Source: Clonostachys chloroleuca (Eukaryota; Ascomycota; Sordariomycetes; Hypocreales; Bionectriaceae). From it: DNA of 64,000 nt. Within the stretch, counting starts at the first letter, position 1. Each line of letters begins with the position of its first letter. A program made the position numbers and the translations under genes. Below the pieces are notes generated by a model. The model ran no database searches. It was given only the letters and a program-made list of their open reading frames with translations, and had not been told where the DNA came from. Below, in pieces: positions 33,072-63,657 of this stretch. The stretch lies in NCBI GenBank assembly GCA_037952775.1, contig JBANAY010000003.1, positions 7,688,001 through 7,752,000 on the forward strand. The letters are read 5' to 3'.

Positions 33072-34537
33072 TTATTGCATAGGGTGGTCGCTTGCCGCAA
33101 CGTTGCATTGATGCATAACCCTAGGGCCGTATGACTTAGGGAATTCAGTCTATCCAACGTCAGCCATGACTGGCAAATTAGAGGGCCAATCCGATTGGAA
33201 ACTCACAATACTGTGCCATAGGGATCTATTGTACCATAGGATGACATCTTGTTCTTGATGTGGGTGAGCATAAATATTCTCGGGGTTGAGCGCTGGCCTC
33301 ATAATCCTTCGGTCGTTGGTCAGCGATAGTAGCTTCGAGGAGGGTTGAGGAAATCTTACTTATCCATAAACGCCCGAACCTCCTTCAGGTCAGTGACCAC
33401 CTCCTCTTCTCCATCTTGGCTGCTCTTCAAGTACAGCTTAAAAGCTCCCTGTCCATGCACTTGCAGAGACTTCTCTCCCGTCTTGGGGTTTGTCCACACC
33501 ATGGGATATATGCAAACTTTCTCCTGTGACCAAGGGGGAGCTGATCTAGCGATTTCTCTAAACCCTCGGTCTCCAATAGGTGGCCGAGTCTTGTGCTGTG
33601 CGCCGTTAACATCCACACGAAGGCATGGGGGGCATACTCTATGCGACTATTCATCACGATGTTCCGGATCTCGTCATCGAGTAGAGCTAAAGCACGGGAA
33701 CCGGCAACCATAGCGGTGGCTCCAGGGGCAATCTTCATCTCGGTTCCAGTGCCATCGTCCCAGCGGACGGTGACATCCGGTCCCTTAGGGGTGCGGACGG
33801 CAAGGAGGCAGCCAACACGGGGTGGTGGGATGTCGTATAACGATGCATCAAAATGCCACTGATAGAATCTGCTTGCACCGGCTTCACGTTCTTCTGTCGG
33901 GATGTGAGGTGGCAAGTGAAATTCCTCGTGGTCGATGCCTTGAACCTCGAAACCCGGGGGGAACTGGTAGTGGTTTTCAGGCAGCGGCCCACGGCCGAGT
34001 ATATGGACTTGGGGTTGGACGGGGATGGCAGGGCGCTTCGGCAGGCCATAAATCTTGACTCCTTGGTATTCGGTCAACAGGGGGTCGGGTCCGTGGGCGA
34101 AGCCACCGGTCGTCTCTTCCGGATCGAAACTGGGTAGGAGTATTAGAGAAGTGAGTGTGGAGGGCCAGAATTATTTCGGGGGCTTACCAAGAAGTTAACA
34201 TGTACTGTTCTATATCTGGTTTTAGCAAGCCATTCTCCTTCGCTGTGACTGGATTTGACGTACGTTGAGGAGCCAGCATTTGAGGCTGCTCCTTGAAAAC
34301 AAGCAACTTATGTTTGTGAAGCGCATCGGAAATGAATTCAAAGTCGGCATCCGTGAACATGTTAAGATCAATGCCATAAACGTAGGCTCCAAAGTCGACT
34401 TTGCTGTCTGGGCCATGTTCAATTGGTACAATTCTGCCTGCTGATTTCTCGGCATGAGGCAGGGTGAACTCCGACTTTCCAGCGATGAGATGGAGTTCGG
34501 GAGCCTCCTCCAGGGTTGTGGCAGATGCAATAACCAT
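33072..34537 (-). CDS. TauD/XanA-like Fe(II)/2-oxoglutarate dioxygenase 1, frameshifted as read
   Basis: Five exons (34537-34264, 34209-34188, 34129-33360, 33306-33207, 33149-33072) would give 414 aa. The iron ligands are H and D in FYQWHFDASLYD, and the distal His is in SLWHSITEFP; the 2OG-binding Arg region is GPRVMHQCNVAAS. YDIPPP, RWDDGTG and EYAPHAFVW resemble XanA, the fungal xanthine hydroxylase, so an oxidised purine or similar substrate is possible. Exon 2 is only 22 nt. In exon 3 the frame slips at five C (33535-33539, G on plus) between EKSLDQLP and WSQEKV. The summed length of 1244 nt is one short. All splice phases fit otherwise. XanA-like function is inference. Confidence 0.82.
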
Positions 34538-34705
34538 ATTCAACGATTGGTGTGTGTGTAGACTGGGGTAGATGGTGCTCTGTGTAGGTGGTCGTGAGCC
34601 TATGTCAAACTCGATGTTTCAGAACTAGTTATAAGCTCAGTGCCGTAAACAGTCTTCAGCCCCAATTGTTGCCGCATCTGATCCAGGAGCAGTGACTTTG
34701 TTGGC

Positions 34706-34747
34706 TTCGGCCGAACTTGTTATATCGCGGTGTGGGCTTCGGCCGAG
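34706..34747. promoter_or_regulatory. Paired TTCGGCCGA elements upstream of dioxygenase 1
   Basis: Two near-identical copies, TTGGCTTCGGCCGAAC and TGGGCTTCGGCCGAGG, lie 32 bp apart. Each contains the 8-bp palindrome TCGGCCGA (34707-34714, 34739-34746). They are the strongest examples of the element shared across the right-hand gene block and are candidate regulator sites. Confidence 0.55.
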
Positions 34748-34943
34748 GTCCCGGGAGTGGGTTGCTATCTAATGTGATTGATGATAATCCGAGAACGATC
34801 ATCTGAGATGGTGCAGTTCCAGGTGAAACAATTTGATTCAATAGGTTTTATTTGAAATAGTTCCTAATCGTTTCCATTTACCACGCCGTCGGGCACACGA
34901 TTGCACTATCTATAGACAGGCACCGCTGACGGCATTCTGATTG

Positions 34944-35841
34944 ATTGCTCTTCACGGCTTGGGCGGTTCGACCTCCACGTTTGAGTCCGTCTTGCTTTAC
35001 TTTCCCGAAAGATACTGAACAGCTCTGGTTGACTTTCTAGCGAGCGGAAAGTCCCGATTAAGTGCAGCTGAGACAGCTCTCAGTGTTGGTGGCCATGTCT
35101 CCGACTTGGGCGATCTCGTCGCACATCTGCAAGCAGTTGGTGGGGACAGCTCGAAGGGAAAAGTAAGTGAATTTAAGATGTTTTGTTTTTCGAGGGCTTC
35201 GAATAGTTACTGAGTTGCTTGTTCTGTGCTCCAAAAGATCGTCATCCTCGGGCACTCCCTTGGCGCCGCAGTCACAATGCACGACGCCGCACAAAGCCCC
35301 AACAACGTCACTGGGCTCGTCGTCCAATGCGAATTCCAATCGGCAACACACATTCTTACCGTTAGACAACGCATGATAGGCACCTCTGCCAACACCAGAA
35401 AGCAGGGAATTGCATTCGCGGCCAAGTTGGCAGCACAGACCAACTTTCCATCAGACGAGCTGCAACTCGTAGATTCAGCCTGCCGCAAGGTCGTGGAAAG
35501 GGCTGTCGCAGGGGCACAACCGGAAATCGAGGGTTAAATCTGAGAGTTAATTTATGGTATGAGCCACAAGGATTTGGTTGGTCCGCTATTGTTCGTTCGG
35601 ATGTTCTCATCAAGGGAGACTTGGATATCATCAGTAAGTGACCCTCATGTATTTTCGGAATGGAGTCTAGAATATGTGTTAAGATTGGCATTTCAGGCCC
35701 AGCTGTGAGATCTAACGGACTGAATGATCGATTTAGTAGAGAGTCATGGGTAGAAATCGTCGAGAGCGGGTATCGGCAGGTACTGGAAAGTGCAGATGCT
35801 GTTGGTGCAGGCATTTCTACATTAGTCCAAGTGGCCTCCTA
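34944..35841 (+). pseudogene. Decayed alpha/beta hydrolase
   Basis: The reading begins without a start codon at an oxyanion-loop motif ALHGLGGSTSTFES. It continues through SGKSRLSAAE and, after an intron (35163-35237), the nucleophile elbow ILGHSLGAAVTMH. A further intron near 35634-35693 leads to ESGYRQVLESAD..GISTLVQVAS and a stop. An in-frame TGA (near 34998, TAC TGA) and a frameshift near 35528-35534 interrupt it, and the first part of the protein is missing. Exon-intron order is still recognisable, so decay is probably recent. It sits between the two TauD-like genes and may once have belonged to the same pathway. Confidence 0.75.
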
Positions 35842-36733
35842 ATAGCTTATCACTAGAAAAGAATTCCCACTTGAAGAAAATATTTCTATGACTATGCAAG
35901 GGATAAGTAAATTCTTAAGGTAGAAGTTAGGATGGGTTAGTCTATCTCGCTCTACTTTAAAACAAACGTATGTTTGTGATGATACATGTTTCTTTAGGCT
36001 GACTATCACATGGCGGACCTCACTCAAATTCATGATCGAGCATGAGACTCTCTGAAACTGGGTAACAGGACGGTTTGCTAGATGATGTTGTCTCCACACC
36101 GGCCATAGATCCGAGGGTAGAATCGACCATTCAATGAATTAAACTCGATTACTCGTGAACTCTATGTTCTAGGTTGAGTTGTGCTTTGAAGTCCACATCA
36201 TACTGCAGCACATGCAGCTGTTACGAGGTCCTATCCGGATCATGGCCTTAGTCTGGCGCCGAGTGTTCCTCGGTGAGGCTTAGTTTTGAGCTATCCATGA
36301 TGTACAGCCAAAAAAAAAAAAAAAAAGATTCCTATCACCCGAGGTAGGATCACAGCTCGGACAAGATAACAGCTTAACGATTAAGTAGATCTCCTACTGT
36401 TCGTGATTCCTTGCTGTTGGTGGTACAAGATAGTTATCAGTGGCTTGTCCGAGCTCGAGGTGGTTAATACCGGCCGGGCTAAGAACAAACAGTGCCCTGG
36501 GTCCTTTTCATGATTGACCCGTGATTGATGCCTCAACCTCGGCGGCTCGGCCGAGAAACCAAGTCACCGAGCGCGACTAGTTTATTAACAGGCTAACGAC
36601 AATCCACAATTACTTGACAGTATCTAAGGGTAAGAAAAATCGCATAATTTAAGTAGTCAATGATAGGCGGGGTAGAATTGAGAAACTTCCTACTAGGGAT
36701 ATCGCTTCACAAATTCGGAACAGCAAACTAGAC
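35842..36733. other. Intergenic with poly-A tract
   Basis: No gene. An A run of about 18 lies near 36310-36327. The palindrome CTCGGCCGAG lies at 36546-36555, about 180 bp before the dioxygenase 2 start. Confidence 0.55.
36546..36555. promoter_or_regulatory. Palindrome CTCGGCCGAG upstream of dioxygenase 2
   Basis: A perfect 10-bp palindrome containing the shared TCGGCCGA core, placed 179 bp upstream of the start codon. The identical 10-mer recurs at 40315-40324. Confidence 0.5.
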
Positions 36734-38141
36734 ATGTCTCAACACGCACTTGGTCCCGAGTTGGGCCTCATGGTCAACTCAATCCCCAAGGGTGCGGGAG
36801 AGAAGACCAACTTCGGTGTGACGATTGAAGGTTTAGACTTGAACCAGATTTCCGGTAAATGAAATTACCAACCTTTAGAAAGTCCGTTTCCTAACCGATA
36901 CAGACGAACAAGTGAAGGCTCTCTCAGACTTCATCTGGACCCACAAGGTATTTGGGAATAATATGTCGCCTACAGCAACTCAAAAGCATCACTGACTTGA
37001 GGCAGTTAGTGGTGGTCAAGGGGCAACAGTCGCTAGAGCCAATCAAGCAGTGGGAACTTGTAACTCGGTTCGACCCGGACTCACCACAAGTGCACTCGCA
37101 TGGCGACATGAAGACCTTTTCCAAAAAGGGCGGCCTTCTCTCAGTGAGTGCTAAGTCCTCGATATAGATTTTCAACGTTCTTACAAGGAGAAGGCCAGCA
37201 GGGAAGTGGTTGGCATCCCGGGAGCGGAAAATGTGCGGCTCATTGGGAAGGGGTTCCAAGGAGAGGATCACTATGGCATCAAGAACCTAACCATCTACCA
37301 CGGCTTGTCCAATGATTTCCATTCCAAAAAGCTGTCTGACGATGATTTCATGGCAGGCAACAGCCGTTTTCAACGATGGCATATGGATGCACCGCTCTAT
37401 GCTAGGGATCCCGCCTGGTTCACGACGTTGCGCTGCTTCAAGAGACCAAGGGAGCCAACGATGAACATTCGATGGGACGACGATACTGGCCTTTCAATGA
37501 AGTCCGAACCAGGTCTCACAGCATTCTTTAGTAATGTCCAGACTTATGAGCTGATGAGCGCCGAGGAAAAGAGCATCGCCGATAACTCGTGGGTGGAGTA
37601 CGCACCCAACCCTTACGTCTGGATTAGCAAATGCGGCGGCAAAGCGAACGGCCTTGGCCTCGAGAGCGAAGGCAAGGAACTTGCTCTTGAGGATCTAGGG
37701 GATTATGAACTCAAGAATGTGAAGACATATCCAATGGTCGGTTATTTTTACCTGCTCTCGAGGCACATGATATCTAACCTCATGTCACTGCAGGTTTGGG
37801 TCAATCCAGTAACTGGCGAGCGAGCTTTCCAAGTTCACGGCATATGTGCACGAAAGTTGTATCTCCGATCCTCCCCTACCGAAGAGCCTCGCATCATCGA
37901 CAATGTAGAAGAAATCCGCGCCTTTCTAAAGCCTATCCAGGAGAGGGTATTGAAGCCAGAATATATACTACTTCCCGCAGTGGAAGAGGGTGATATTGTC
38001 ATGTGGGCAAATTACATGATGTTCCACACCGCGATAGACTATCCAATCGAATTTGGGGCACGGACAATGCACCAGGCCAACATTGGCGCAAGCATCGGTC
38101 CTACTCAAATGGGGTTGTTCGAAATACCTTCTTTGGCATAA
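36734..38141 (+). CDS. TauD/XanA-like Fe(II)/2-oxoglutarate dioxygenase 2, 399 aa
   Basis: Five exons (36734-36854, 36904-36947, 37006-37143, 37188-37736, 37794-38141). It is a paralogue of the gene at 33072: H and D ligands in FQRWHMDAPLY, RWDDDTG, EYAPNPYVW, YPMVWVNP..G-RAFQVHG, the distal His in MMFHTAIDYP and Arg in GARTMHQANIGAS. An N-terminal 2OG lobe has TNFGVTIEGLDL and KVLVVKGQQ-type text split by introns. Two introns are uncertain: 37144-37187 is only 44 nt (the acceptor could also be at 37190), and 37737-37793 uses a weak donor GTCGGT but is required by alignment with the paralogue. An oxidised nucleobase-like substrate is possible. Confidence 0.82.
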
Positions 38142-38694
38142 AGAACGCCAGTTTGTCAACTCAATGAACACTTTGATAGTAAATAGAAACGATTTCGTAT
38201 CTTGGCGTGCTCTAACTTTTGTTTTTCGTCTATATGAGAATCTGCCCCAAATTAAAGCTATGGTTTCATGTAAAGACAGCATAATCGCACATCATTCCTG
38301 AACACCTGTAATACACTAGATTTCCACTTGTTACTTAACTTGTGGGTTGATCTGAAGAACGTATCGTCAGCTCTTCAAGCTCATATTGATGCTATTGCAC
38401 AAAACATGATGTATAAACGCCAGCTCATTCTATATGTCTCAGGATTTCATAAGGTATTCATCGGGACGCCATCTGTTTAATTACGTTGACTTCATGTGAA
38501 GGAACATAATATCACAACAGCTGCGTGGCGCCAATGCTGAGATAGACATAGTGAGGATTATATTTCAGTGTTCTCGATTTCTGGTCAAATACCCATCTAA
38601 TATGTCTCTTGGTCTCTTGATGAAGGGTCAACGACACCAAAGCATGAGCGAACCTTTCATTTCACTGTTGTAACGAACGAGATGGCCACACAGC
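38142..38694. other. Convergent spacer
   Basis: 550 bp between convergent genes, AT-rich, with no gene seen. Confidence 0.5.
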
Positions 38695-40064
38695 CTACGC
38701 AATGCCTGCAAGCCGAGCTCTCTCCTGAAAGAATTCACCCACGCTCGAGGCACCTGTCATGGTCAGTACCGAGATAAGGGCATGCAAAGTGACTATAAAC
38801 TAATCCTTACCGTCCTTTTGCACAATTATTCCGCCTGGTTTGACAGGATTCATCACCTTATCAAATATATGAGTTTCCCGCGGACCATTTGACCTTGTCT
38901 AGGTAAGGCTGAGGACTCACAATGTCATGATTAGGTGTACTGAAGTACGCAATTGTCTTCCTGCCTTTGGGCAGTTCCGCACTTACAGACCCTTGGAAAA
39001 TGACTCGATGCACATTGGCCTTACAAAGACCATCTGTCATACCTTCCAGTGTCAATCCAACATTTACCTAATGAAGTCAGTTTTCAGTATGCCAATTTTT
39101 ATGAATAATATTTACCAAAACAGTATTAGGTATGATCGGTGCAGATATCCAGGTTCCTGACTCAAGATCAACGTCGCCTTGAATGAGCTGTAAACCGCTC
39201 TGCTTCTTAGCACTTTCAGTTGGCAGATAGACTTGAAGTCCTGGTTGACCGTTCTGTTCTTGAAACAAGAGCGTAACGTCGCCCCACTGGCCGAACACGT
39301 CAATACGTTTAGCCATATCCCTCCTTCGGTCCATGGCATTTCGTTCAACTCACATCTATTTTATGAATTAGCAAGGTAATGGCCAGCCAAGTGTTTCAAT
39401 CTCATATGCCATGCATACCTTTATGACTCCCAGCTCGAATGTCGTCTCCCGCGGGTGGCTTTTCCAGTGCAGGATAATTGAGGAATGCTAAGCCGTTGGA
39501 ACCATCGTCTTTGTGAGTGCTTCGAAAAAAGTTTCCTGGAAGCTACAATTTGATAGTATCAGTTCATGTGTTGACTACTTCTGAAACAACTTGTCTCCGA
39601 GGGTTATGACTGACATCGAATGCTCGTGACAGAATATCAAGAACTCGAAGAGAAGCCTCATAGCATCTTTGATCAAATCTGATAATCTCATCTTGGTACT
39701 CCTTCATTGCCTTGGGCAGGCTTTGAGTTGTCGCCTTCTCTCCGGCAGAGGCCATGTACCTTCCCCAGACAAAACTCTCCTTCAGATCTGTTCCAGTAGC
39801 CCGTTCGTCCAAGGAGCCCTTCATGCCAAAGTAGCCATTGCCCCGGTCATCTTTCAGAGACCCCGACCTTTCGGCTTGCGGAACGTTATGGAGAAGCGCC
39901 GACAATTCGAAGGCCCGGTCAACATCTGCCTGCGTGATGTCGGTGCCCTCGAGATCAAGGTGGATGAAACCGACCGTGGATAGAGCTTGGAGAACCTCTT
40001 CGGGTTTGGAATGAAGGAGAGAGATGAGCGGAATCTCGGGGGGTACATTGTGATTGGCTGTCAT
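38695..40064 (-). CDS. Isopenicillin-N-synthase-like 2OG-Fe(II) oxygenase with a 2-nt micro-exon
   Basis: Seven exons: 40064-39591, 39542-39419, 39355-39354, 39286-39116, 39067-38921, 38856-38811, 38753-38695, giving 340 aa. The N-terminal DIOX_N domain runs from PLISLLHSKP to NGYFGMKG. The 2OG-FeII domain carries HxD in SHKDWGDVTLLFQE, the distal His in ANVHRVIF and the RKTIAYF Arg. Family members hydroxylate or cyclise small molecules. The Asp codon of HxD is split G|AT between exon 2 and a two-base exon flanked by strong splice sites, and all phases close only with it. The first intron boundaries (48 nt, donor GTTGTT) are less certain. It diverges from the permease at 40804. Confidence 0.82.
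39354..39355 (-). other. Predicted 2-nt micro-exon (AT)
   Basis: On the minus strand the two bases lie between acceptor AAAATAG (branch site TGCTAAT upstream) and donor GTGAGT. The flanking introns are 39418-39356 (63 nt) and 39353-39287 (67 nt). With it, the protein reads GSHKDWGDV. Without it, the frame is lost and the iron-binding Asp is missing. Confidence 0.65.
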
Positions 40065-40803
40065 TGTCACTATGTTGGAAGCAACTCAATCTCCTGTTCA
40101 TGGATCTCTTGAGGCTGGTTAGTTTATTGTCCCACTATTTCCGCAACGAGGACGAGCGTGGGGAACATCGAGAATTTTAAAGAATCCCTTGTTGTAGATG
40201 GCAACAGTTGAGGATACCCCTTACGAACTACCGTATACCCCTGCTTGGGGAACAAGCTGGGTCTTGAAACCCCGCGCCATCGCTTCCCGAGACCAGCTCC
40301 ATTGTCAACAAGCCCTCGGCCGAGCAGCTCTTATCTCTCAGTCCCACCAACGCGACTAAGCTAGTGGCACCGAGATTCTAGTACTTCGAGCGATGATTGC
40401 CTTATCTTCAGCAAACCAGGTGCCCCGGATTTTCATTACTCATTTGATTGCGCTAGATTGCAATCCCGACCCTGGCGGATAAGGATCCCCGGGTAACGAA
40501 ATAGTGACTACCTTCGAAACGTTATCATCACAGCTCATAAACATTATCGACCCTGAACATCATAGGTGTTGATAGCCTCAATCCCCTCTATCTAAGATTG
40601 AACCACGCTATAGGTTCTAGCCTTTCACCTACGCTATCATTCATGCACGAGGATTTGGCGATGGTGTACAACCTGACAAATGCCCTATATGTAAACGTCC
40701 TGAGATCTTTCTCCCAGTTTGCGTTCATTACTATTAAAGTCTCCAATTTTCCTTCATTCTTTATCTAATACACTTACACACTACTAAGAAGTGCCCGTCC
40801 AAC
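40065..40803. promoter_or_regulatory. Divergent promoter region of oxygenase and permease
   Basis: 740 bp serving both genes. It holds the perfect palindrome CTCGGCCGAG at 40315-40324. No gene is supported. Confidence 0.5.
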
Positions 40804-42725
40804 ATGAAGAAGACCGACGTACAAGACTTTGGTCGCAGGGCCAAACGAGCCCTTACCACTAGAGAAGGCTTCAAGAACGCCATTGAAGTCCAAGCTTCCG
40901 ACTTTGCGCCATCTAGTCATGGCTTCATCTGGTCGAATGCCCACATGGATCCGACGCCTCCCTCGGAGCGAACTTGGACTTGGTTCCATTACTTTGCGCT
41001 TTGGTATTCCTACAACTTCACTTCGGGTGCTTGGGCTGCTGCATCGTCTTTGCTGAGTCTCAATATCAACTGGTGGCAGGCGGTTTTGGCCTGCTTGGTT
41101 GGGTCCATAATTAGTGGACTTGCTGTGTCTATGAACTCTAGGCAATCTTCGATCTATCATATTGGATTCCCTACCCTTCAGCGCGTTTCGTTTGGTATGG
41201 AATTAAGTCCTTCTCTTTAACATTCAACTCTTTGTCATACACTAATATCCATAGGTCTCTATGGCTCGCTCTTTCCCGTTTTTACCAGAGCAGTTGTTTC
41301 GGTGCTATGGATTGGAGTCACTGTGTATCAGAGTTCATTGTTCCTTGATGTCGCCTTTAGGTATTTTCTTGACAGGCACCCTCAGAGTAATTGGCCGCTA
41401 ATTATTTTCTAGGTGTGTATTCGGTGATGCTTGGTTCCTTATGCCAAACACATTGCCAGCTAGCGGAGGCATTACGACACGAAAATTCGTTGCTTGCTTC
41501 ATCATCTGGATTGGATCATACCCTGCAATGTTCCTTAAGATCCACAAGATGAGGCACTTTTGGACTGCGAAGGCGGTCGTTATTCCGCCGATCACGGTTG
41601 GACTTTTCATCTACTGCATGGTAGTTGGAAGCAAAGGTGCCGTTTCATACACATCCGGAACTAAAGAGTTGACTGGCTCCTCATTGGGATGGGCTTTCGT
41701 GTATAGCGTACAAGCTATTATTGGAAACTTCTCCCCTTTGATTACCTCCAACCCCGATATTGCCCGATATGCTGTCAAGCCCAGCGCCACAGGCTGGCCA
41801 CAGCTACTTACAATCGCATTCTGGAAGACGGTCATCTGTGTGATTGGCATCTTCGGCACCAACGCAATCGCCTACAAATACGGCACCACCTATTGGAATA
41901 TGTGGGATATTTGCCACGTCATTCTGGAGAACAACTGGAATGGCGGCGTTCGTTTTGCGATCTTTCTCTTTGCAATCTTGATGGCCTGTTCTGAGCAAAT
42001 CAAGAACCTATCATCAAACCTGATCTCATTTGGCGCCGATACGGCTTGCTTGTTGCCAAAGTACATCAACATCAACCGGGGGATGATACTAGGCCTGACT
42101 ATCGGTTTCGTGATCCAACCTTGGTATATTCTTGCATCGGCTAAGAGCTACCTTACTTTCCTCACAGGATACAGCCTCTTCTTGGGGGCCATTCCATCTA
42201 TCGCGGTAGCAGATTACATTCTCCGTAGAGGCAATGTGGACGTTTTATCCTTGTACACTGCCAAGAAAGGTAAGTTTTTGTTATTGTTACCGTTTTACAG
42301 TCATCGCTGATTTACTTTTAGACTACTGGTATCTCAAGGGCTGGAATTGGAAAGCATACGTTGCCTACATCATGGCGATTTGGCCCGTTGTTCCTGGACT
42401 TGCATACCAATTCTCCAAGGATCCTTCGGTCTCCCAAGGCTGGGTGCATTTGTACCAACTAGACTGGCTATTTTGTGTCTTCGTGGGAGCTTTCACTTAT
42501 GTTGTTCTGTCACTGCTTTTCAAAGACCCGTCCATGACCGAGGCTCGCCAGCACCCATGGGAAAGCTACGCAAAGAACCAGCAGGAGCTCCTGGACAACG
42601 AAATTGAAGGCACAGTGCTGCAAGGTTCTCCGCCTAGCGAATCAGAATCGGAGAAAGTCCGCCATTCCCTAGACAAGAATGTCATCAAGGTCGAAAACCC
42701 AGTGGGACCAGTACTTTCAGTCTAG
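40804..42725 (+). CDS. NCS1 permease, Fur-type (uracil/uridine/allantoin)
   Basis: Four exons (40804-41194, 41255-41360, 41413-42269, 42322-42725) join in frame to 585 aa. The N-terminus has TWTWFHYFALWYSYNFTSGAW, then SIYHIGFPTLQRVSFG, the Fur-type signature around NFSPLITSNPDIARYA, and twelve expected membrane helices ending in a charged C-tail. This is the plasma-membrane Fur4/Dal4/Fui1 subfamily of proton-coupled nucleobase, nucleoside, allantoin or hydantoin importers. The residues that decide the substrate cannot be judged here. Together with the Fcy-type permease at 54900 it argues that the block handles a nucleobase-like compound. Confidence 0.93.
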
Positions 42726-52773: not shown

Positions 52774-53243
52774 TTTGGCTTGATGGTAATGAGAAGTTGG
52801 AATTGACGATGGAATCAATGACGTTGTTTTCCTTTTATCAGATCATTGTAATTCGAGACAGCATATTTCTTCTGTAGAATAGACTCTTTAAAGCCAGCTC
52901 GTTTCACCCATGGCCGATGGAATCTTGCCCGACAGGGAATCATTTCCCAAGCCAACTTACGCCCTGTAGGTAGGTTATCTTTCCCAATGACTGGTTTCCT
53001 CATCCATGATGAAGCGATGCCGACGGCCAGTCGCGCCGGAGTAATGGCCGAAGCAAGATGGCCGAATGGTTAGACCCGCCTCGGTGAACAACCGGCGGCG
53101 CTGGAGAATTCGGCTTCTCAGGTTTAGGTTGTAAATATAGCTTGAAGCTGTATTGAAAATCATCATATTTCTATAGCAAGTTTGACTATTGACTCTATCT
53201 TAGAGTCCCCGTACCTGAGGACTTACCACACAATAAATGAAAC
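52774..53243. promoter_or_regulatory. Shared divergent promoter of SDR and glyoxalase
   Basis: GGCCGA cores at 52912-52917, 53046-53051 and 53060-53065. The last two are ATGGCCGAA repeats 14 bp apart. No gene. Confidence 0.55.
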
Positions 53244-53950: not shown

Positions 53951-54899
53951 CATACGATAAGATCGGCGCTTCACGTCAACACATGTTTGCATAATTCAGA
54001 CATATCTAATACGGGTAAATATTTATCTAAATCAACCCAACACGTGCTTCTCAGTGGACAAAGTAAACGAACATCTCCATCGCAGTGTGATCGTAGTGGA
54101 GTAAGATAAGCCGATTATTAGCTTCCCTCCCGAAACTGTCAAGTGACAGACATGAGGCACACCAAAGCTCTTTTCACGCAAGTCAGGGGACCACATCTTC
54201 TTATTAATAATACTAAACGTAATAAGAAGTCGATACTATATTATTCTACAATTTTTTTTAGCTTGAGATTGTGGTTATTATTAGGTTAATTACTTTGATA
54301 TTGTGTTGAAATTCGACGCTGGTGTGCCATGTTTAATGTCAGTCGCTTGCCTGTTATTAACGAAGGTTGCACGATACTGTTGGTCTTGGTTTAGCATATT
54401 CTTATCGGGTAGCTGCAAAGATGGCTAGACTCATTAATCATGTCTTCATGGTACTTACGACGCGGATAATGTCATGCGAGGCTTTCTGGGCTGGCTTGAT
54501 AAAGATATGACATATGACTTGTCAGATAATTGGTTGTATTATTGTGTTGTGTGTTGTGTGGGCTCCGACGCCTGCATTCTCGGTTGGGCTACGCGCCCGA
54601 GATATGCAAATGGTGGGAAGTCACTTTCCTAGCTTTTTAGGGTCTAGAGAGATAAGGTACATGTTGGGTTTCTGACCCGAGTCTCCTAATTGACTAGCCG
54701 GAATTACTCCGTCCTCTGACATGACTCGCGTTATCTGTGTTTAACCTATCTTCGGCCGTTGTCGGCCGCCATCGGCATCTCTCCATTCTGTGACACCTGA
54801 TTTCCATCGCGATTTCACTAATAATAGAGACAACATGCAGCTACCATACATATAACAACTTCATGCATACAGGACAATCCACAATCCACCAATCGGCTC
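53951..54899. promoter_or_regulatory. Promoter region of the Fcy-type permease
   Basis: 950 bp, no gene. Two direct copies TTCGGCCGT and GTCGGCCGC (cores 54752-54757 and 54762-54767) lie 10 bp apart, about 140 bp before the start codon. An AT-rich part lies near 54190-54300. Confidence 0.55.
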
Positions 54900-56501
54900 A
54901 TGGCTCTCTCGCATTCTAACATGGCTAACCAGACCGGCACGCCCTTGTCGAAAGCTACAAGTTCCGTCGCATCAGACTCCAAAATGAAGCAACCAGTCCT
55001 TGATTCTCAGCAGATTCAGCTTGAGACTGAGCCGCAAACAGGGGAGGTTGTCGACATCGAGGCTGGGTTCTTAACCAAGACTCGAATATGGATCCAGAAG
55101 GTCGGCGCTGAAGAATCCGGAATCGAGCGAATTCCTGAGGATGCTCGCATCAAGCAGAGCCCATGGTCTCTGTTCCTAGTTTTCTTCAGCGCCAACTGCT
55201 GTACAGCAACTCTTGCGCTTGGATATCTGGGCCCCGCAACCTTTGGCCTAGGATGGTGGGACTCTTTCCTCTGCATCCTCTTCTTCAACTTGCTGGGCTC
55301 CCTGTTCCCAGCTGTCGTCTCCCGGTTCGGTAACCGGACAGGCCTTCGAACTATGGCCGTGCCTCGTTACTCATTCGGATGGTGGCCAACCAAAGTCTTA
55401 GCTGTCCTCAATATCATCACACAGATCGGGTGGGCCATTGTCAATGACCTCTCCGGTACCTCTATTCTCTATGATGTTGGTGACGGTAAACTACCGTCAG
55501 CAGTTTGCGTTGTCATTATTGGTCTCATCGCGATCATTGTTGCTGCCCTAGGTTACAAGTATATTCATATCTACGAGAGATACTCTTGGATATTCATGTG
55601 CATTTGTTTCGCGATCCTCGCTGGCTTCGGTGCCAAGGAATTTGTCAACCTCCCAATGGGCACTGGCCAGACGGAATTATCTGCTGTCCTGGGCTTTGGT
55701 ACTGTCATTTTCGGCTTTGAGATTTCCTGGGTCCCGATTGCCGCTGATTATAATGTCTATATGGAGGAGCACACTAGCGACTGGGCCGTCTTTGGGTGTG
55801 CATATGGCGGCCTCTTTGTGGGCCAGTTCTTCGTTGAGGTCCTCGGAGCTGCCATTGGTACTCTCATCCTGAGCCCCGATGCACGTTTCCAGGAAGCATA
55901 CGGTCGATCTGGGATGGGCGGTCTCATGGGTGCCGTCTTTGCTGGACATGGCGATGGTGTTCGAGGGCTCGGCAAGCTCGTTGAGGCTATCCTCTCCCTA
56001 TCAACGGCTGCTGTCATTGTTTGCGGTATATATTCAATCGGACTCAGTGCCCAGCTTACATCAGAGAAGGCCCTCCGTGTCCCTCGCATTATCTGGTCAC
56101 TTCTTGGTGGCATCATCTTCTTGGTTTGTGCCATCGCCGGCCGAGACCACCTTGAGGCTGTCATGACCAACTTCCTTAACATGTGCGCATATTATCTGAC
56201 ACCGCTCACAACCATTATTCTTGTGGAGCACCTTGTCTGGCACCGAGGCTGGAACTATAACCTCGAGGCTTGGAATGACAGGAATCAGCTTCCGTTTGGC
56301 ATTGCGGCTTCTATTAGCGCCATTGTTGGGACCGTCGTCGCCTTGATGTGCATGAGTCAAACTTGGTGGATTGGCCCTATTGCCCTCGCCATCGGTGGCT
56401 CAGAGGCTGGCACTGATATCAGTTGGATGCTTGCTCTCGGCGTGACCACAGTCTTGTATATTCCTCTTCGATATTGGGAGCTGCGCAAATGGGGACGATG
56501 A
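54900..56501 (+). CDS. NCS1 permease, Fcy-type (purine-cytosine), 533 aa
   Basis: An intronless frame. A hydrophilic N-terminus of about 90 residues ends in ESGIERIPEDAR, the conserved lead-in of Fcy2/FcyB-type permeases. Twelve membrane helices follow, with GLRTMAVPRYSFGWW, QIGWAIVNDLSGTSILY, the core FGFEISWVPIAADYNVYM and the C-terminal WNDRNQLPFG. Family members are proton symporters for cytosine, adenine, guanine and hypoxanthine, or for pyridoxine. It belongs to a different NCS1 subfamily from the permease at 40804, so the block has two nucleobase-type importers. Confidence 0.93.
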   Translation: MALSHSNMANQTGTPLSKATSSVASDSKMKQPVLDSQQIQLETEPQTGEVVDIEAGFLTKTRIWIQKVGAEESGIERIPEDARIKQSPWSLFLVFFSANCCTATLALGYLGPATFGLGWWDSFLCILFFNLLGSLFPAVVSRFGNRTGLRTMAVPRYSFGWWPTKVLAVLNIITQIGWAIVNDLSGTSILYDVGDGKLPSAVCVVIIGLIAIIVAALGYKYIHIYERYSWIFMCICFAILAGFGAKEFVNLPMGTGQTELSAVLGFGTVIFGFEISWVPIAADYNVYMEEHTSDWAVFGCAYGGLFVGQFFVEVLGAAIGTLILSPDARFQEAYGRSGMGGLMGAVFAGHGDGVRGLGKLVEAILSLSTAAVIVCGIYSIGLSAQLTSEKALRVPRIIWSLLGGIIFLVCAIAGRDHLEAVMTNFLNMCAYYLTPLTTIILVEHLVWHRGWNYNLEAWNDRNQLPFGIAASISAIVGTVVALMCMSQTWWIGPIALAIGGSEAGTDISWMLALGVTTVLYIPLRYWELRKWGR

Positions 56502-56826
56502 TCTGCTACCCAGGATACTTTTGGTTCTATCTTCTCTTCTTTTTGGAGTAGCCTTTAATTGAAATGTAATTCTGTGAACTTTTTATAGCCGAATAATAGC
56601 ACTCGGCAACTCAGATATCACGGCCAAGTTTATTTCACTATACAGTTTGCTTCGCACTTTCCGTTTCTTGGGTTATTCCACAAAACTCTCGAATGTAAAC
56701 CGTCGAGACTACCTGATGGTCCCCTCTTTCTCGTAAATAATGCAAGTTTGGTAGGGTCCTATCCTGTGTCTATCAAATCATAATCTGAATAGAACCGATT
56801 CGGCCAAGTAAATGGTTTGTTAATAT
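56502..56826. other. Convergent spacer
   Basis: 325 bp with no gene; TCGGCC at 56800-56805 near the hydrolase 3' end. Confidence 0.5.
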
Positions 56827-58185
56827 CTACAACAAGCCTTTCTCAATGTAAACAGCTTCCTCGAATGCCTTAATAACAGGTAAGACGACTGGGTCAGAGG
56901 GCGGTAAGACTTGAGTTCCAAACACGCCACAAACCCCAGCATTTCGATCAATGAACTATCATTCCCTTGATTAGCTCTTTCATTTTCCGATAAGAGTTCT
57001 AGTATAAAGTAAAAAAAATAAGCAACAGAAGATGCCAGACTCGACATCTTAGCACAATGAAAAGAACTCTTTTATTTTAATTGAATAAGACGACTTTCAA
57101 CTTACCCAATAGACGCTTGGAGCGCCACTCCACAAGAGAGTATTTCGACGGCGATACGGGTGTGAATCACCGTCAATAAGTAAGCCGCCCAAGCCCCAGT
57201 CGTACTCTTTGGTCTTGAGTATATCACCAACAGTCCAGGTAGCCGATTCTAGTTCCTGAATCAATGCTCCCTTCGAAGCTGGTGATAAATTCGGCTTGAA
57301 CATGAGAGCAGTTGTCTCCCGTTTGAGTAATGCCTCGTCATCCAGGAGAAGGGATCGGAGTATTCTCATATAATCGGGTAGATTTATGAACAGCCCTTGC
57401 CCACCAAAGCATTCTTTGAGCCCAGTTGTGAAGTTTAGGGCTCCCGGATCAGGGACTGCGCGGGCGTTCCCATGTTCTCTCACTGCCATCAGGGGAGGCT
57501 TTCCGCCCCAAAATGACGCACTAGATATCCCGAGAGGGTGAAAGATATATCGCTTAAAATACTCTTCCAACGTTGTTTTGGCTAATTTCTCAATAATCTG
57601 GCCGACTCTGTCGAGACTGTTACTGTATCGCCACCCTTCGCCGGGCTCATATGACAGTGGAAAGTCAAAGTTGGATTTAATGGTTCCATCGGACATATAC
57701 CCGGGTGAAACAGCAACAAATTTAGCAATCCGGTCATCTGTAAATGTATAAGCTCCACCGGCCGAGTGAGTGAGTAGGCGCTGCAAAGTTATTGCATTGC
57801 AGCGAGGGTGAGATGCGTAGGAACCATCATCATTGACATCGCCCTCCAAGACGCCTCTTTTGCTGAACTCCGGGATAAGGTGTGAGATATCATCTTCCAG
57901 GCGGATGAGACCTCTTTCCACAAGCTGCAAGGCAGCAATTGTGGTGACAAGCTTTGTCAGGGATGCGACTTCCAGCACGGTTTCGTCTGTATATGTTGAG
58001 TCCAGCCCAGATACTGCTTTTGAGTATCTTAATTTACCTGTCAAAGAGCTTAGCCATATGTAAATGCCTAAAGTAACAACGGCCATTTCAAGATTACTAC
58101 CTTCAATATCACTTGCAAGAAAGATTGCTCCGGGGATCACTCCGTCCTCCACAGCTTTCGAGACTATCAACTCATAGGCTTCCAT
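56827..58185 (-). CDS. Serine beta-lactamase-like hydrolase/transesterase, 381 aa
   Basis: Three exons (58185-58101, 58037-57106, 56955-56827). The start is the ATG of MEAYELIV, and an upstream GTG frame is discounted. The 63-nt first intron is stop-free and a multiple of three, but its removal gives DIEGKLRYSKAVSG as in relatives. The catalytic SxxK is in VASLTKLV near residue 64, and the YSN motif is in GWRYSNSLD. HSAGG and the C-terminal LLWSGAPSVYWFIDR..GVCGVFGTQ follow, the last part lying in the third exon. This is the class C/LovD-like family that hydrolyses or transfers esters and amides. It shares a promoter region with the regulator gene. Confidence 0.88.
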
Positions 58186-58717
58186 CCCAGAATTTGCATC
58201 AACTGGGCTGTATGTACTCAGTGCAGCTAGCACTCACAAATTTACCAACTGTATCTTGTAGTTATACCAAGGAGTCCACCCCATGGGTGGAGATAAGCTG
58301 GACTATTTCGGCCAAGGAACCGCCATTGGGAAGATATCGTTATGACTGAGTGACCCCCGCTAATTCATATTCCGGCTGAAGCATAGAGCCGTGATCTTAG
58401 ACCCGGACAATGCCAGTCCAGTTATCTCCTGTTCATTCCCATAGCTCAGTATCCGCATTGACTCAGGGTCCCAAATCTCCACACACGAATACGATTATTT
58501 ATTGGGGTTGGCTGGAGTTAACTCCACCGTTATCTTTCGTCGGCCATTGTTCGGTTGGGCCAAAGATAAGCTTCGTCGGCCATCTCCCATGTGGGCTATT
58601 GTTCCTGACGGCCAACTCTCCTCGGATACCCCGGCGCCCGACTCGTACATACAGAAGTTCGCCTACCAGCACGACATCTTCACGTAAGATCTATCACATC
58701 AACTCGTAATCATCACG
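58186..58717. promoter_or_regulatory. Divergent promoter of hydrolase and Zn2Cys6 regulator
   Basis: 530 bp with TCGGCC at 58308-58313, 58540-58545 and 58576-58581. The last two are CGTCGGCCAT repeats 36 bp apart. Presence next to the regulator itself is compatible with autoregulation. Confidence 0.55.
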
Positions 58718-61244
58718 ATGAGCGGCCGAAAGTCCACAGGACAATCCTTGAACCGGCCCTACAGGTCCAAGCGTCACCGGCCGTGCGATGTCTGCCGTCG
58801 CCGAAAACATGCCTGTCATCTTGAGGACCAAGCTCCTTGCAGGATCTGCCGAGAACTGGGCGTAGATTGTACTTTCAATGAGCCTCCAACGAAACGGAGA
58901 CGCCCACCAAGGTTGCCCACTTCTGCCTCCACGCCTGAGGACGAGAGGGATCCAGACAGTGGACACTATGACCAGAATAGCCGTGCTGGGTCGGAAATTG
59001 AGGCTTCTGTACCCAATGACTGGGCTCCTGGACAGGAAGTAGCTGAGGACTGCCCTGATTATACGATAGAGATTGGCCACCTAGGCAACCTGGACGACTC
59101 TGTTAGTGCCGAGATGTTTCAGACATCTCACCACGATGTCTGGTACGCTACCTCTGGTCTAACTGAGCCTGGTCTGGGAAGCCTGTCGGCCGCATTTGCT
59201 GAAGGTATGGGGGGTGTCGACTTTGCTCCGGATGACTTGTTCCCCCTGATCAACCAGTTTTCTATCCCAGAGACTCAGCAGGACTTCCCCAGCCTTCGCT
59301 TGCCAGAGCAAGGTAGCAACCGAGCAACCCAACGCTCGAACACACCTGTTCCATCGCAGCCACAGGCAAGCAGGGCCCTCGACTCGCATGATGAGACTTT
59401 GTCGGCCCAGCTCTTCGGCCCATCTGGCGAGATGGACCCATATCTTCTGAGGCATGTCAATTTCTCAGAAGATGGAAGCTGCAATTTTGGCCGATTCCAA
59501 TACCGGTCACTCTTCCAGACACCGACGGGAGAGCTAAATCAGCCAAACAGTGCCTTTCCGGCTCACTTTCTCATAAGTGCACCCAAACAGTCTTCAAATG
59601 TGCCAACCGGGAGCTCTATCGGCGATACAGATCAACGAAAAGAGCTCAATAGAATTGTTGATCCGGAACTAGGGGTACGATACATCGGGTTGTAAGTTAC
59701 CACAGCACCCACAAACAATAATATCTAGGCTCATGTATGCTGATTCTACGAAGATTCCTTCGCTACACGTTTCCCAGCCTCCCCGTTCTCTCTCGTAGTA
59801 GGCTGAAAGTCAGGACTGAAACTCTGGTACCTAAAGCGAATATCCTCAAAGGTGTCCCTCCTTACCTTTTAGCCGCTATCTACGCCGTGGCAGAGTCATT
59901 TCGCCGCTATGATCCAATATTGAACGTCTCCCAGACAGATGTGGAGTGCCACAAGACTCTGTTATGGGAGATGGCCCATCGGGGAATATTAGGACACATG
60001 CACGCACCCTCCTTAGCTCTCGTACAAGCATTGCTCATATATCTGCAAAGACCTATGGGAGAGGCAATGACGGCATCCACAGACGGCCGGGGGCACTGGT
60101 CTTTATTAGGGTCTGCGATAAACGTTGCTAATCAGCTTGGACTTCATCTGGATTGCCAACTGTGGCCAATACCAGACTGGGAGAAAAGACTTAGAAGGAG
60201 GCTATGGTGGATGATACATACCGAAGCTACCTGGCGAAGTTTGCTATTAGGGCTTCCCCTTCCTATCCATTGTGATCAGTGGGATGTAGCACCTCTAGAT
60301 GAAGCAGACTTCGTCATTGATCACTTCTCGTGCCCCAATGAGGAGACCGCCGCACAAGCACTTGCTCTTCAAAAGCCTTGTGCCTTCTGTCATGGTGGCC
60401 ATGATTTCCGCTTTCTTGCAGAGCTTTCTCTCATCGCATATGATTTATACACCGACTTCTTTACCCTACGTGCAACGAACGCACTTTCGGTCGATTTTGA
60501 AACATCACTCAAATATGGAAAGAGATATTTGGCAAGGCTCGATGACTGGCATGCCAACCTCCCGAAGCAGATGGCGGTCTATTCAGTCTCCGCTCCGCAA
60601 CATCGTGACTACTTCCACCCCGGTTCAGCAGCTCATATCAAACTCGCCTTCTTAACTTTGAAGGCCCTGACCTACCGAGCAATACTTCGGCCAATAGCGA
60701 ATCTTTCATCCCAAGGCATTTCCAGCACAGGTATCAGCCGACGTAGTGACACCTCTCCGCAGGCTTCAATGATTGGAGTTGGAAATCCTACAACTCCGAC
60801 AATCTCCAGTGCCACCTGGGGGATATTTCAAGACGCTCTCACCACAGCCCAGCAGGCGAGCCAATTCGCACAAAGCTTGGGGTCTTACGACAGAAACAGC
60901 TTCTCACGATCATGTAAGTCCGAACTCAACATATAAGGATTCCACATTCCCATATTAATTTGTGTTCCCCAGGGTCCCGGGCGTGTTATGCCACGATCTC
61001 GAATTTTATCATGCTTCTTCTCGTACTGGCACCCACAGCTGTTTCCGCAAAACAGGTACTAGCCGCCCTTTCTCGATGGGTCATCACACTACGGGAACAA
61101 AGCGTCATGTTTGAAACCATGCAACTTGGTCTCCTGAGGCTGGATGCAATGTTTCGTCTGGGCTTAGAGAAGGCACTGCGTCTCACTACTCATGTTAAAG
61201 AGAGCGTTCAGAAGGAAAAACCAACCCCGAGCTACAAGAATTAA
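58718..61244 (+). CDS. Zn2Cys6 fungal transcription factor, probable cluster regulator
   Basis: Three exons (58718-59691, 59754-60913, 60973-61244) give 801 aa. The binuclear zinc cluster lies at residues about 23-52: CDVCRRRKHAC, then CRICRELGVDC, flanked by basic KRRRPPR. The middle-homology (fungal-specific TF) domain runs from FLRYTFPSLPVL through HWSLLGSAINVANQLGLH and RRRLWWMIHTEATWRSLLLGLP. The first intron (62 nt, acceptor ACGAAG) is chosen because it alone joins YIGL to FLRYTFPSL in frame. Such factors bind CGG/CCG triplets. TCGGCC elements near most genes of the block, including its own promoter, make it the likely pathway activator; this is inference. Confidence 0.92.
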
Positions 61245-61893
61245 TGCTCATGGCGCCGGGGTTTCCAGTTAGCACTTGTCTTTCCCTAGCTAGTGCCTTA
61301 GCTATTTAAATGAGCACATCATGAACATTAAATGAACGTGACAAAAATGAAATGATTGTTTCAATCGCACAGAAATGCATCATTTGTTGTCCTACACCCC
61401 TCCTTGATTGCCATGAAAACATCACTCAAACTCTCTCATATGGCTTGTCCACCAACATAGGGCCAAGAGTGTTAGATTAAAACATTCTCGTTCGGATCAA
61501 TTGACCCCCAAGATCTCACTATGAGTAAGTTGCCACGTGTAAAAAGATAAGAATTATCGTACGACTTTTTTTTTATCCATAACCCTTCCATCAATGGCAG
61601 AGGGTAGCGTTAGATAGGACGATCGGGCTCTGCTATCCAGCATGCAACCCATTGACCCGTCTTGGCCGATGGTGGCCGCTGACAAGGAACATCGGCCAAA
61701 ACAAACCAATCATCGCGATTATTTTGAATGGCAAGGGATATTCATTACGTGTATAGCATTATCGAATGATAAAACGCGGGCCTTGGGTATAGAATTAAAC
61801 ATTATACGTTGAACGGGAGGAAGTATTTTTAGCCTTACTCCAAGCATCATATTACCACAGATCATTCTCATTACCGCAAATCTCAGCCTCAAC
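61245..61893. promoter_or_regulatory. Promoter region of the BVMO gene
   Basis: 650 bp, no gene. Element cores at 61664-61669 (GGCCGA) and 61692-61697 (TCGGCC), about 200-230 bp before the start. Confidence 0.5.
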
Positions 61894-63657
61894 ATGAACG
61901 GTGACGCGCCCCCAGCATTCAAATTGGAAGGGAAAGCCGTCGATGACGGTCGACCCATCCGCTTAGTGATCATTGGTGCTGGTGTTTGCGGTATAGCCCT
62001 TTACATCCGAACCCTCCAATACATTCCGAACGCCACTGTCACCATTATGGAGAAGAACCCTGCTCTAGGTGGGACTTGGTACGAGAACAGGTATCCCGGC
62101 GTGGCGTGTGACATCCCCAGTCACGTATACCAATATTCCTTTGAGCCAAACACGAACTGGTCCAAGCTCTTTTCGCCTGGTGCTGAGATCCTAGAGTATG
62201 TCAAGGGTGTCGCTAGCAAGTACCGAGTGGACGACAAGATCAAGTACAATACGAAGGTGATTGGAACTGAGTGGAATGAGGAGAAGAGCTTATGGATCGT
62301 GAAGACGGAGGATACGACCGTCAATGAGGCCGTTGTGAGGACTATAGAGGCGGAGGTTGTCATCAGCGCTGTTGGAATATTGAATAACTGGAAATGGCCT
62401 GAAGTTGAAGGTCTTAAGGACTTTGGTGGCAAACTACTGCACTCCGCCCACTGGGATACTGACTGGTGAGTATTCTTTCCGTGATGAAATAATCGAATCT
62501 AATAATGCCAAAGGGACTACACTGGGAAGACCGTTGCGCTATTAGGATGTGGATCTTCTGCAATCCAAATCCTTCCTCATTTGCAAAAGAAATGCCCACA
62601 GGTATACAATTTCATCCGAGGCGGTACATGGATCAGCCAACCTTTTGGGTCGACTTACACGGAGAAAATTCTCGCCAACAGTACCGAGCCTGGGAATTAC
62701 TCTTATTCAAAAGAGGAGATTGACCGTTTTCGAAACGACCCAGAGTACTATCGCAATTTCCGGAAGGAGATGGAGAGCTTCATCAACAAAGACTTCCCGT
62801 CTCTATTTCCCAAGTCGGTTGAAGAGATTGATTCTACCAACAAGATTCGTGATAATATGAGGAAGAAGCTCTCTTCCAAGCCTGGGATTTATGAAGCTTT
62901 AGAACCTCGATTCACTCCTGGCTGCCGCCGTTTAACACCCGGCCCCGGATATCTTGAAGCTCTAACCAAGGACAACGTGAAACTCATCAAAAATCCAATT
63001 GTACGCGTAACTGAAAAGGGGGTGTTGACTCAAGATGGCTCCGAGTGGCCTGTGGACGCAATTGCCTGTGCAACAGGCTTCGACACTAGCCACAGACCTC
63101 GATTTCCAATCATCGGCCGGCATGGAAAGTCTCTCAATTCATTGTGGGAAGAACGAGCTTCGGCATACCTCTCTCACTCCATCCCAGGCTTTCCCAACTA
63201 CTTCATTGTCGGAGGACCAAACAGTGCCACCGGTGGTGGATCTCTCTTGCTTATCCTTGAATCCATCATTGGATACGTTATCAAGGCGGTTCAAAAAATC
63301 AGTCGAGAGAACATCAAGACTATGGAGGTCAAACCAAGTGCTCTAAATTCCTGGGTTAATCATCTGGATAAGTATTTCCCAGGCACAGTGCACGTCGACG
63401 AATGTACCAGCTGGTATAAGGTAAACAACCAGATCATCGGTCTTTGGCCTGGCAGCAGTCTTCACGCGATGCAGACTCTCATGCACCCAAGGTGGGAGGA
63501 TTATATTTACGAGACTGCGAACTCCAAAGGGGAATTAGAGTGGATCGGAAACGGTTGGACCTGTGAGGACGTGAAAAGGGGGGATCTTGGGTATTATGTC
63601 GACCTCGTTGATATACCACCAGTACCCTCCGATAAAATGCTTTCTAGACAGCCTTAG
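61894..63657 (+). CDS. Flavin monooxygenase, Baeyer-Villiger type (StcW-like), 571 aa
   Basis: Exon 1 (61894-62465) and exon 2 (62514-63657) join at HWDTDW|DYTGK. The FAD motif IIGAGVCGIAL starts near residue 27. GGTWYENRYPGVACDIPSHVYQYSF is the usual second block, FGGKLLHSAHWD matches the BVMO fingerprint FxGxxxHxxxW, and LLGCGSSAIQILP is the NADPH-binding site. ACATGFDTS lies in the C-terminal half. These class B enzymes insert oxygen next to ketones or oxidise heteroatoms. It is the last gene of the block. The block may continue past the window edge. Confidence 0.92.

Follow-up and report, generated by a model that had tools for sequence, protein, structure and literature searches.

A nitrogen-type gene cluster of Clonostachys chloroleuca with an uncharacterised DUF1989-CE4 enzyme at its core and a predicted role in N-heterocycle catabolism

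The gene cluster

In the 64,000-nucleotide stretch of the genome of the soil fungus Clonostachys chloroleuca analysed here (contig JBANAY010000003.1, below C3, positions 7,688,001 to 7,752,000; we call this stretch the window, and positions refer to it unless a contig is named) 14 genes lie between 33072, the end of the gene for a XanA-like oxygenase, TauD1, and 63657, the end of a gene for a Baeyer-Villiger-type monooxygenase (BVMO; Table 1). They probably constitute a fungal nitrogen-catabolic cluster that has at its core an uncharacterised, predicted bifunctional enzyme, in which a DUF1989 domain is fused to a CE4 domain. Spliced gene models predicted across the window, followed by a scan with Pfam and NCBIfam, bear out both the gene list and the outer limits given by an initial annotation. 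The model for the oxygenase resembling isopenicillin N synthase (IPNS) needs a 2-nucleotide micro-exon (39354-39355) to retain the HxD iron motif. A further short-chain dehydrogenase (SDR) gene, whose product is 45% identical to SDR2 of the cluster, begins just to the right of the window at C3:7752003 (~64.0 kb on the window scale), with its model ending at 65.1 kb. In the literature searched, most subscription papers lying outside it, we found no described function of DUF1989-CE4 proteins and no description of this cluster.

The initial annotation had set this tight clustering against the scattered arrangement of fungal purine genes, and the contrast holds within the genome: uricase and allantoicase are absent from the cluster, with the canonical genes at C4:12.58 Mb and C4:0.63 Mb respectively, and a XanA-like gene in a single open reading frame (ORF) is found at C3:11.02 Mb.

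Table 1. Genes of the cluster, sites of the promoter motif, and the second module
Feature	Position	Strand	Basis and remarks
TauD1, XanA-like 2-oxoglutarate (2OG)/Fe(II) oxygenase	33072..34537	-	Pfam TauD on N-terminal part; frame change near 33.54 kb; C4 paralog
TauD2, XanA-like 2OG/Fe(II) oxygenase	36734..38141	+	Pfam TauD 65.8 bits; C4 paralog
IPNS-like 2OG oxygenase with DIOX_N	38861..40064	-	nearest solved structure thymine dioxygenase
NCS1 permease, Fur/hydantoin type (NCS1_Fur)	40804..42725	+	Pfam Transp_cyt_pur 279 bits; PDB Mhp1 68 bits
Gfo/Idh/MocA dehydrogenase	43653..44817	+	Pfam
Cytochrome P450	45341..46864	+	Pfam
M20 N-carbamoyl amidohydrolase, beta-alanine-synthase-like (predicted)	47091..48558	-	TIGR01879; 1r3n 372.6 bits
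DUF1989-CE4 fusion, Zn DUF1989 and HpPgdA/HxnM-type domain (predicted cyclic-imide/ureide hydrolase)	49263..50988	-	Pfam
SDR2, short-chain dehydrogenase	51763..52773	-	family scan; paralog just right of window
Glyoxalase-family protein	53244..53950	+	family scan
NCS1 permease, Fcy type	54921..56501	+	Transp_cyt_pur 87 bits
Beta-lactamase-fold serine hydrolase	56827..58185	-	family scan
Zn2Cys6 regulator with Fungal_trans, candidate TCGGCC-binding protein	58718..61244	+	family scan; promoter shared with serine hydrolase has 3 motif sites
Baeyer-Villiger-type flavin monooxygenase (FMO/BVMO-like)	61894..63657	+	family scan
TCGGCC[AG][AT] sites (19) in 34538..61893	34709, 34741, 36549, 40318, 43515, 44987, 45103, 48809, 51203, 51385, 52912, 53046, 53060, 54754, 58310, 58542, 58578, 61664, 61694		
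Second module	C4:7181472-7192472 (7.1814-7.1925 Mb)		NCS1 permease, alpha/beta hydrolase, TauD1-like, TauD2-like, IPNS-like oxygenase

A promoter motif shared with a second locus

As promoters we used the intergenic sequence in front of all 14 genes, TauD1 through BVMO, with at most 1 kb per gene; this gave 11 regions with a total of 8,288 bp. A count of 9-mers in these regions led to GATGGCCGA and its relatives, described by the pattern TCGGCC[AG][AT]. This pattern has 23 matches on both strands, distributed over all 11 promoters, against a mean of 0.9 in dinucleotide shuffles, none of 500 of which reached 23. Since the palindromic TCGGCCGA is counted twice in this figure the distinct sites number 19, compared with 12 in the remaining 55.7 kb of the window. 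When all 6-mers of the cluster promoters are ranked, CGGCCA stands first (z 13.9) and the overlapping TCGGCC second (z 13.2), the maximum over 300 shuffles being 6.1; CGGCCG by itself occurs 9 times against 1.0 in dinucleotide shuffles (0 of 500). The same promoters contain 60 HGATAR sites against 30 in shuffled sequence, a density of 7.2/kb that compares with 2.6-2.7/kb in three control promoter sets.

On the left side of the cluster the three nearest promoter regions (those of THI5-like, MFS/LLM and SDR1 genes) have no match to the TCGGCC motif; nine control promoters from window 1-24 kb have one match in total, and five other promoters of C4 also have one. To the right, all four TCGGCC matches of the 10 kb beyond the window are in the promoter of the adjacent SDR gene, which carries the TCGGCCGA palindrome. 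By this distribution the cluster begins on the left after SDR1 and before TauD1, and on the right it extends past the window by roughly 1 kb. The genes adjoining the left side (25568-32398), which code for a THI5/NMT1-like protein, a Dal5-type major facilitator superfamily (MFS) transporter, a luciferase-like (SsuD-like) monooxygenase (LLM) and SDR1, are excluded as members by their motif-free promoters; they may form a separate sulfonate- or thiamine-related set. Sites of the UaY type, TCGG-N6-CCGA, are absent from the cluster promoters. Literature retrieved with the motif strings was, among the matches listed, all unrelated. No more than four places in the whole genome have two copies of TCGGCCGA spaced 5-34 bases apart. 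The TauD1 promoter is one of these; another, at 14972-15003, is situated within a predicted membrane-protein gene some 20 kb to the left of the cluster.

The TauD1-like and TauD2-like genes each have two loci in the genome and are adjacent at both. The second locus, on C4, is a module (Table 1) that also has an ORF which we read as a regulator, with no Pfam family match. The four promoter regions of the module, with limits set by us and a total of 2,998 bp, served as a held-out set for the motif. A 40-kb stretch around the module has 10 distinct TCGGCC[AG][AT] sites, of which 6 fall in these promoters (P 2.9e-5), as do all 5 of the TCGGCCGA palindromes of the stretch. GATA sites reach 7.3/kb in them (22 versus 11.8 in shuffled sequence, with 2 of 400 shuffles reaching 22). 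The motif, the GATA enrichment and the confirmation at C4 together point to one nitrogen-type regulon. On this promoter evidence the 14 genes and the SDR outside the window are probably co-induced under nitrogen shortage; we infer that the Zn2Cys6 protein encoded at 58718 binds TCGGCC and that an AreA-type GATA factor adds nitrogen control.

The DUF1989-CE4 protein

The fusion protein of the window matches the Pfam models of DUF1989 with 175 bits and of polysaccharide deacetylase with 61 bits. Proteins of this architecture, among the matches listed (best 120 of 725), span fungi that we take to be Sordariomycetes, Eurotiomycetes, Leotiomycetes and Dothideomycetes. An alignment of 33 of the 120 listed proteins revealed that the DUF1989 metal residues C92, H106, C109 and D180 are kept in 32 and C177 in all 33, the exception being P0070; the window protein has all of them. 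These residues were matched to the Zn cysteines C263, C279 and C343, along with H276 and D346, of the trimethylamine N-oxide (TMAO) demethylase Tdm, as given in the available part of PMC12560246. Relative to the known DUF1989 enzymes, namely TMAO demethylase and the carboxyguanidine deiminase CgdAB (PMC12560246 and PMC11271267, in the portions available), the fusion thus keeps the three-cysteine Zn site and, as in TMAO demethylase, the His/Asp pair, while differing in its partner domain, which is CE4 and not GcvT. The best solved relative of the DUF1989 half is 3oru. In the CE4 half the metal triad consists of D226 and H301, found in 33 of 33 proteins, and H305, found in 32. Judged by these residues, both halves look catalytic.

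The initial annotation had cited PuuE-type CE4 enzymes as known openers of ureide rings, and here a correction is needed: over the whole domain the CE4 half matches HpPgdA (3qbu) with 264.7 bits, compared with 64-73 bits for PuuE-type structures, and it does not reach the cut-off of the NCBIfam PuuE model TIGR03212 (65.6 vs 424.6). It is thus closer to HpPgdA and HxnM. A predicted structure of P0001, moderate in quality (mean pLDDT 76.8, pTM 0.54) and used for fold matching only, likewise suggests HpPgdA 3qbu as the match of the CE4 part in Foldseek (TMt 0.77), with PuuE lower. HpPgdA is inactive on allantoin, according to the accessible text of PMC3084791. HxnM of Aspergillus nidulans, a CE4_HpPgdA-like protein, is described in the available sections of PMC8478523 and PMC9304392 as a cyclic imide hydrolase on the strength of deletion and metabolite data.

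Seven sister CE4 proteins from Penicillium, Talaromyces and Aspergillus (P0088, P0100, P0104, P0108, P0112, P0113 and P0115) have no DUF1989 among their listed Pfam domains, and a Pfam scan of P0088, P0108 and P0115 left their N-terminal part without a family over the cut-off. A Penicillium SDR-CE4 fusion that would link SDR2 to the CE4 domain was considered and rejected: the N-terminal domain of these seven proteins has no convincing match in the window (best E 0.037) and a profile gave none.

The paired XanA-like oxygenases

In its catalytic stretch TauD1 is 81-83% identical to its C4 paralog, with 67% identity at the N-terminal end; for TauD2 and its own paralog the figure is 49-66%, depending on the stretch. 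The C4 permease is 27-32% identical to NCS1_Fur and the C4 IPNS-like oxygenase 26% to its window counterpart. A recent duplication of TauD1 in Clonostachys is rejected, as the C4 copy groups with Dactylonectria and the window copy with C. rosea. Of 22 NCS1 loci in the genome, three, the window included, lie within 10 kb of a TauD gene (rotation mean 0.32, P 0.004). At another locus (L136, C3:15088001-15096000) an NCS1 permease gene, a gene of the TauD family of a different kind and a HyuA-like (hydantoinase/oxoprolinase) gene are adjacent, with no motif enrichment.

The initial annotation had read both TauD genes as XanA/TauD-like. The family assignment stands, and close relatives are named as xanthine dioxygenase XanA in public records, but the two types form an adjacent pair with a second locus of its own, unlike the single-ORF XanA-like gene on C3, which is 40% identical to TauD1 and 34% to TauD2. 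The presence of that gene rules out TauD1 as the XanA of this genome. A Q-x-N sequence after the second histidine, a possible counterpart of the substrate-binding residues of XanA, was seen by eye in TauD2, in the two paralogs on C4 and in the gene on C3.

A run of C near 33.54 kb (33430-33600) marks a change of frame in TauD1, the upstream part and the homologous remainder being read in different frames; the gene is either a pseudogene or affected by an assembly error. The N-terminal part matches Pfam TauD with 34.2 bits and is 100% identical to C. chloroleuca V2G26_005144, a public model that stops at 332 residues; the C. rosea model of 410 residues looks mis-spliced at two places.

Conservation in fungi and bacterial gene-neighborhoods

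Fungal synteny was assessed by eye from same-length contigs and locus tags in protein listings, which covered the best 120 of 725 matches for DUF1989-CE4, 120 of 7992 for M20 and 120 of 156 for TauD1-like proteins. DUF1989-CE4 and M20 occur on same-length contigs in at least 10 species, namely Stachybotrys elegans, Cephalotrichum gorgonifer, Penicillium hispanicum, P. angulare, Thozetella sp., Cordyceps fumosorosea, Stylonectria norvegica, Microdochium trichocladiopsis, Sporothrix stenoceras and S. eucalyptigena, and have consecutive locus tags in at least three of them (Stylonectria and both Sporothrix). In Exophiala bonariae, among the matches listed, M20 and a TauD1-like gene share a same-length contig 29 locus numbers apart.

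Bacterial and archaeal neighborhoods of CE4 genes were examined at 73 of 80 loci (L078, L089, L092-L095 and L097 omitted), 69 of which have a called CE4 gene. A gene for an isochorismatase-fold hydrolase (PF00857 in a representative) stands directly upstream of CE4 in 13 of these 69 and within six genes in 16. Nearby genes further include HyuA-like genes in 6, HyuB-like genes in 5 (both labels being our own reading of the sequences, with no family scan) and deaminase-type amidohydrolases in 5. The fungal CE4 proteins form a separate clade, supported at 100/100 and set off by a long branch, which rules out a recent transfer from the Roseomonas group and for which reason the bacterial context is a hint only: the bacterial CE4 proteins may open rings whose products pass to C-N hydrolases. 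The 16 loci with an isochorismatase-fold hydrolase near an HpPgdA-like CE4, mostly of Roseomonadaceae (L024, L028, L031, L033, L036-L038, L040, L042, L043, L045, L046, L051, L052, L070 and L075), possibly represent a cyclic-imide operon.

Relation to known pathways

The permeases of the A. nidulans nicotinate (hxn) cluster belong to the MFS. That cluster, in the available parts of PMC8478523 and PMC9304392, resembles the present one in having an HpPgdA-type CE4 protein (HxnM), a 2OG oxygenase similar to thymine dioxygenase (T7H), HxnY, an SDR-type protein, HxnW, and monooxygenases, and in being a set of nitrogen-source genes under a specific regulator together with a GATA factor. The differences are several: here CE4 is fused to DUF1989, an M20 protein takes the place of the amidase HxnN, the permeases are of the NCS1 family and the regulator is a Zn2Cys6 protein. 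The hxn set is defined by the molybdenum nicotinate hydroxylase HxnS and the C2H2 regulator HxnR (PMC5746545, in the part available), and neither family is present among the 14 proteins. A set read from similarity as hxn-like is instead located at C3:27.80 Mb (L135, C3:27.797-27.807 Mb, 27797001-27807000), with an HxnM-like CE4 gene divergent to an SDR gene, an MFS transporter and 2OG oxygenases, so that the cluster is not the nicotinate cluster. The two clusters are parallel in their logic and not by descent.

In the hydantoinase/carbamoylase route, as in the reductive pyrimidine route (DHP, that is dihydropyrimidinase, plus beta-ureidopropionase), a cyclic ureide is opened and the N-carbamoyl acid is then cleaved. 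The cluster shares this two-step logic, with final cleavage by an M20 enzyme, but its ring opener has the CE4 fold, not an amidohydrolase or HyuA/HyuB fold. The M20 protein passes the cut-off of the hydantoinase/carbamoylase model TIGR01879 (336.7 vs 204 bits), in agreement with its initial description as an N-carbamoyl hydrolase, and its best match is yeast beta-alanine synthase, ahead of ureidoglycolate hydrolase (144.5 bits) and allantoate amidohydrolase (122.5 bits). With PuuE allantoinase and allantoate amidohydrolase the cluster has in common a CE4-fold ring opener and an M20 hydrolase; in contrast to that pair, however, the CE4 half is far under the PuuE cut-off and the M20 protein is closer to beta-alanine synthase.

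Proposed pathway and its alternatives

We consider it fairly likely that the 14 genes, together with the SDR gene beyond the window, belong to a single nitrogen-responsive regulon for the catabolism of an N-heterocycle; the order of reactions, the chemistry and the substrate are deduced from the protein families. The two NCS1 permeases would import a nucleobase-like N-heterocycle, which the XanA-like pair, the T7H-like oxygenase and the P450 would hydroxylate or demethylate and the SDRs oxidise to a cyclic imide or ureide. Hydrolysis of a C-N bond of the ring would then fall to the CE4 domain of the fusion protein. Its Zn-DUF1989 domain may act on that intermediate or on one next to it in the pathway, taking off an imino/amino or N-methyl group. 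The M20 enzyme would split the resulting N-carbamoyl acid into an amino acid, CO2 and ammonia, with BVMO, the serine hydrolase, Gfo/Idh and the glyoxalase handling the carbon part. By the chemistry of their families the P450, SDR, BVMO and beta-lactamase-fold hydrolase could also hydroxylate a carbon substituent, turn it into a ketone, convert this to an ester and hydrolyse the ester; a substituted heterocycle is favoured on that account. The single pathway supposed by the initial annotation is supported in part, in its co-regulation as a nitrogen-type cluster and in its permeases, oxygenases, ring-opening hydrolase and N-carbamoyl hydrolase, with the enzyme types of CE4, M20 and TauD revised.

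Several observations weigh against this reading. The TCGGCC motif was discovered in the same promoters in which it was first tested, so that the C4 locus is the sole held-out set, and an earlier search for CGG and CCG pairs spaced 0-20 apart, with mononucleotide shuffles as a weaker null, was not significant (P 0.16). The motif variants differ by module, with TCGGCCGA at TauD1, TauD2 and IPNS/NCS1_Fur and ATGGCCGA, TCGGCCGT, TTGGCCGA or TCGGCCAA elsewhere, which could imply two regulators. The NCS1-TauD association has P 0.04 when calculated for two or more loci, and TauD1 is out of frame in the present assembly. The synteny called for at the outset holds for the CE4/M20 pair in the species given above, but CE4 and M20 are on different-length contigs in Exophiala spinifera, E. 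mesophila, Niveomyces insectorum and the listed E. xenobiotica strains, and a TauD1-like gene shares a same-length contig with DUF1989-CE4 in Clonostachys only, among the matches listed; this suggests two modules and not one unit across fungi. Finally, DUF1989 is found near CE4 at none of the 69 bacterial loci, and the CE4 proteins of those loci belong to a clade separate from the fungal one.

Degradation of ordinary nucleobases, that is of uracil- or thymine-type pyrimidines or of a simple purine by variant enzymes, with the extra oxygenases widening the range, would account for the two NCS1 permeases, for the proximity of M20 to yeast beta-alanine synthase and for thymine dioxygenase as the nearest relative of the IPNS-like protein (60.7 bits). 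This last similarity is weak, however, and common to HxnY (PMC9304392, in its available part); a Pfam scan of the 14 proteins, as distinct from the whole genome, which was not searched, gave no family match for dihydropyrimidine dehydrogenase or dihydropyrimidinase; two further M20 paralogs are present in the genome; and P450, BVMO and serine hydrolase would be superfluous for plain pyrimidines. Such a pathway seems to us unlikely.

Clonostachys lives on plants and on other fungi, and C. rosea is a mycoparasite (PMC5999205). This lifestyle, along with oxygenases of four kinds, namely XanA-like, IPNS-like, P450 and BVMO, and the serine hydrolase, would suit a cluster for detoxification or one directed at xenobiotics or plant alkaloids, in which the oxygenases did the main work and nitrogen release was a by-product. 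The GATA enrichment and the nucleobase-type permeases indicate nitrogen acquisition instead, and DUF1989-CE4 and M20 are kept as a pair in other fungi, which renders this explanation distinctly improbable. Even less probable are several unrelated neighbouring modules (oxygenase/permease, CE4/M20 and BVMO/SDR) brought together by chance and sharing only general nitrogen control, for although the module-specific motif variants and the restriction of TauD1 with CE4 to Clonostachys would agree with this, TCGGCC is found in 11 of 11 promoters and is nearly absent from neighbours and controls.

We therefore return to a probable co-regulated catabolic cluster; the initial finding is real and, as regards a co-regulated unit, stronger than was first stated, its chemistry being plausible. 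A more specific version of it, which we advance tentatively, is a eukaryotic N-heterocycle pathway, absent from the literature searched, whose genes would make up two unlinked clusters within a single TCGGCC regulon. The bifunctional DUF1989-CE4 enzyme of this pathway would deiminate or demethylate a cyclic guanidine or ureide and open the ring, the beta-ureidopropionase-like M20 protein would complete the process, and the paired XanA-like dioxygenases would be a functional unit with a substrate class of their own.

Conclusions

The DUF1989-CE4 architecture, present in several classes of Ascomycota, gains a concrete and testable pathway from these observations. As two unlinked gene sets share a promoter motif, an inducer of one should also induce the other, making discovery of the substrate practical. 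Clonostachys being a genus used in biocontrol, a nitrogen source within its reach but not within that of many others may bear on its life on plants and other fungi.

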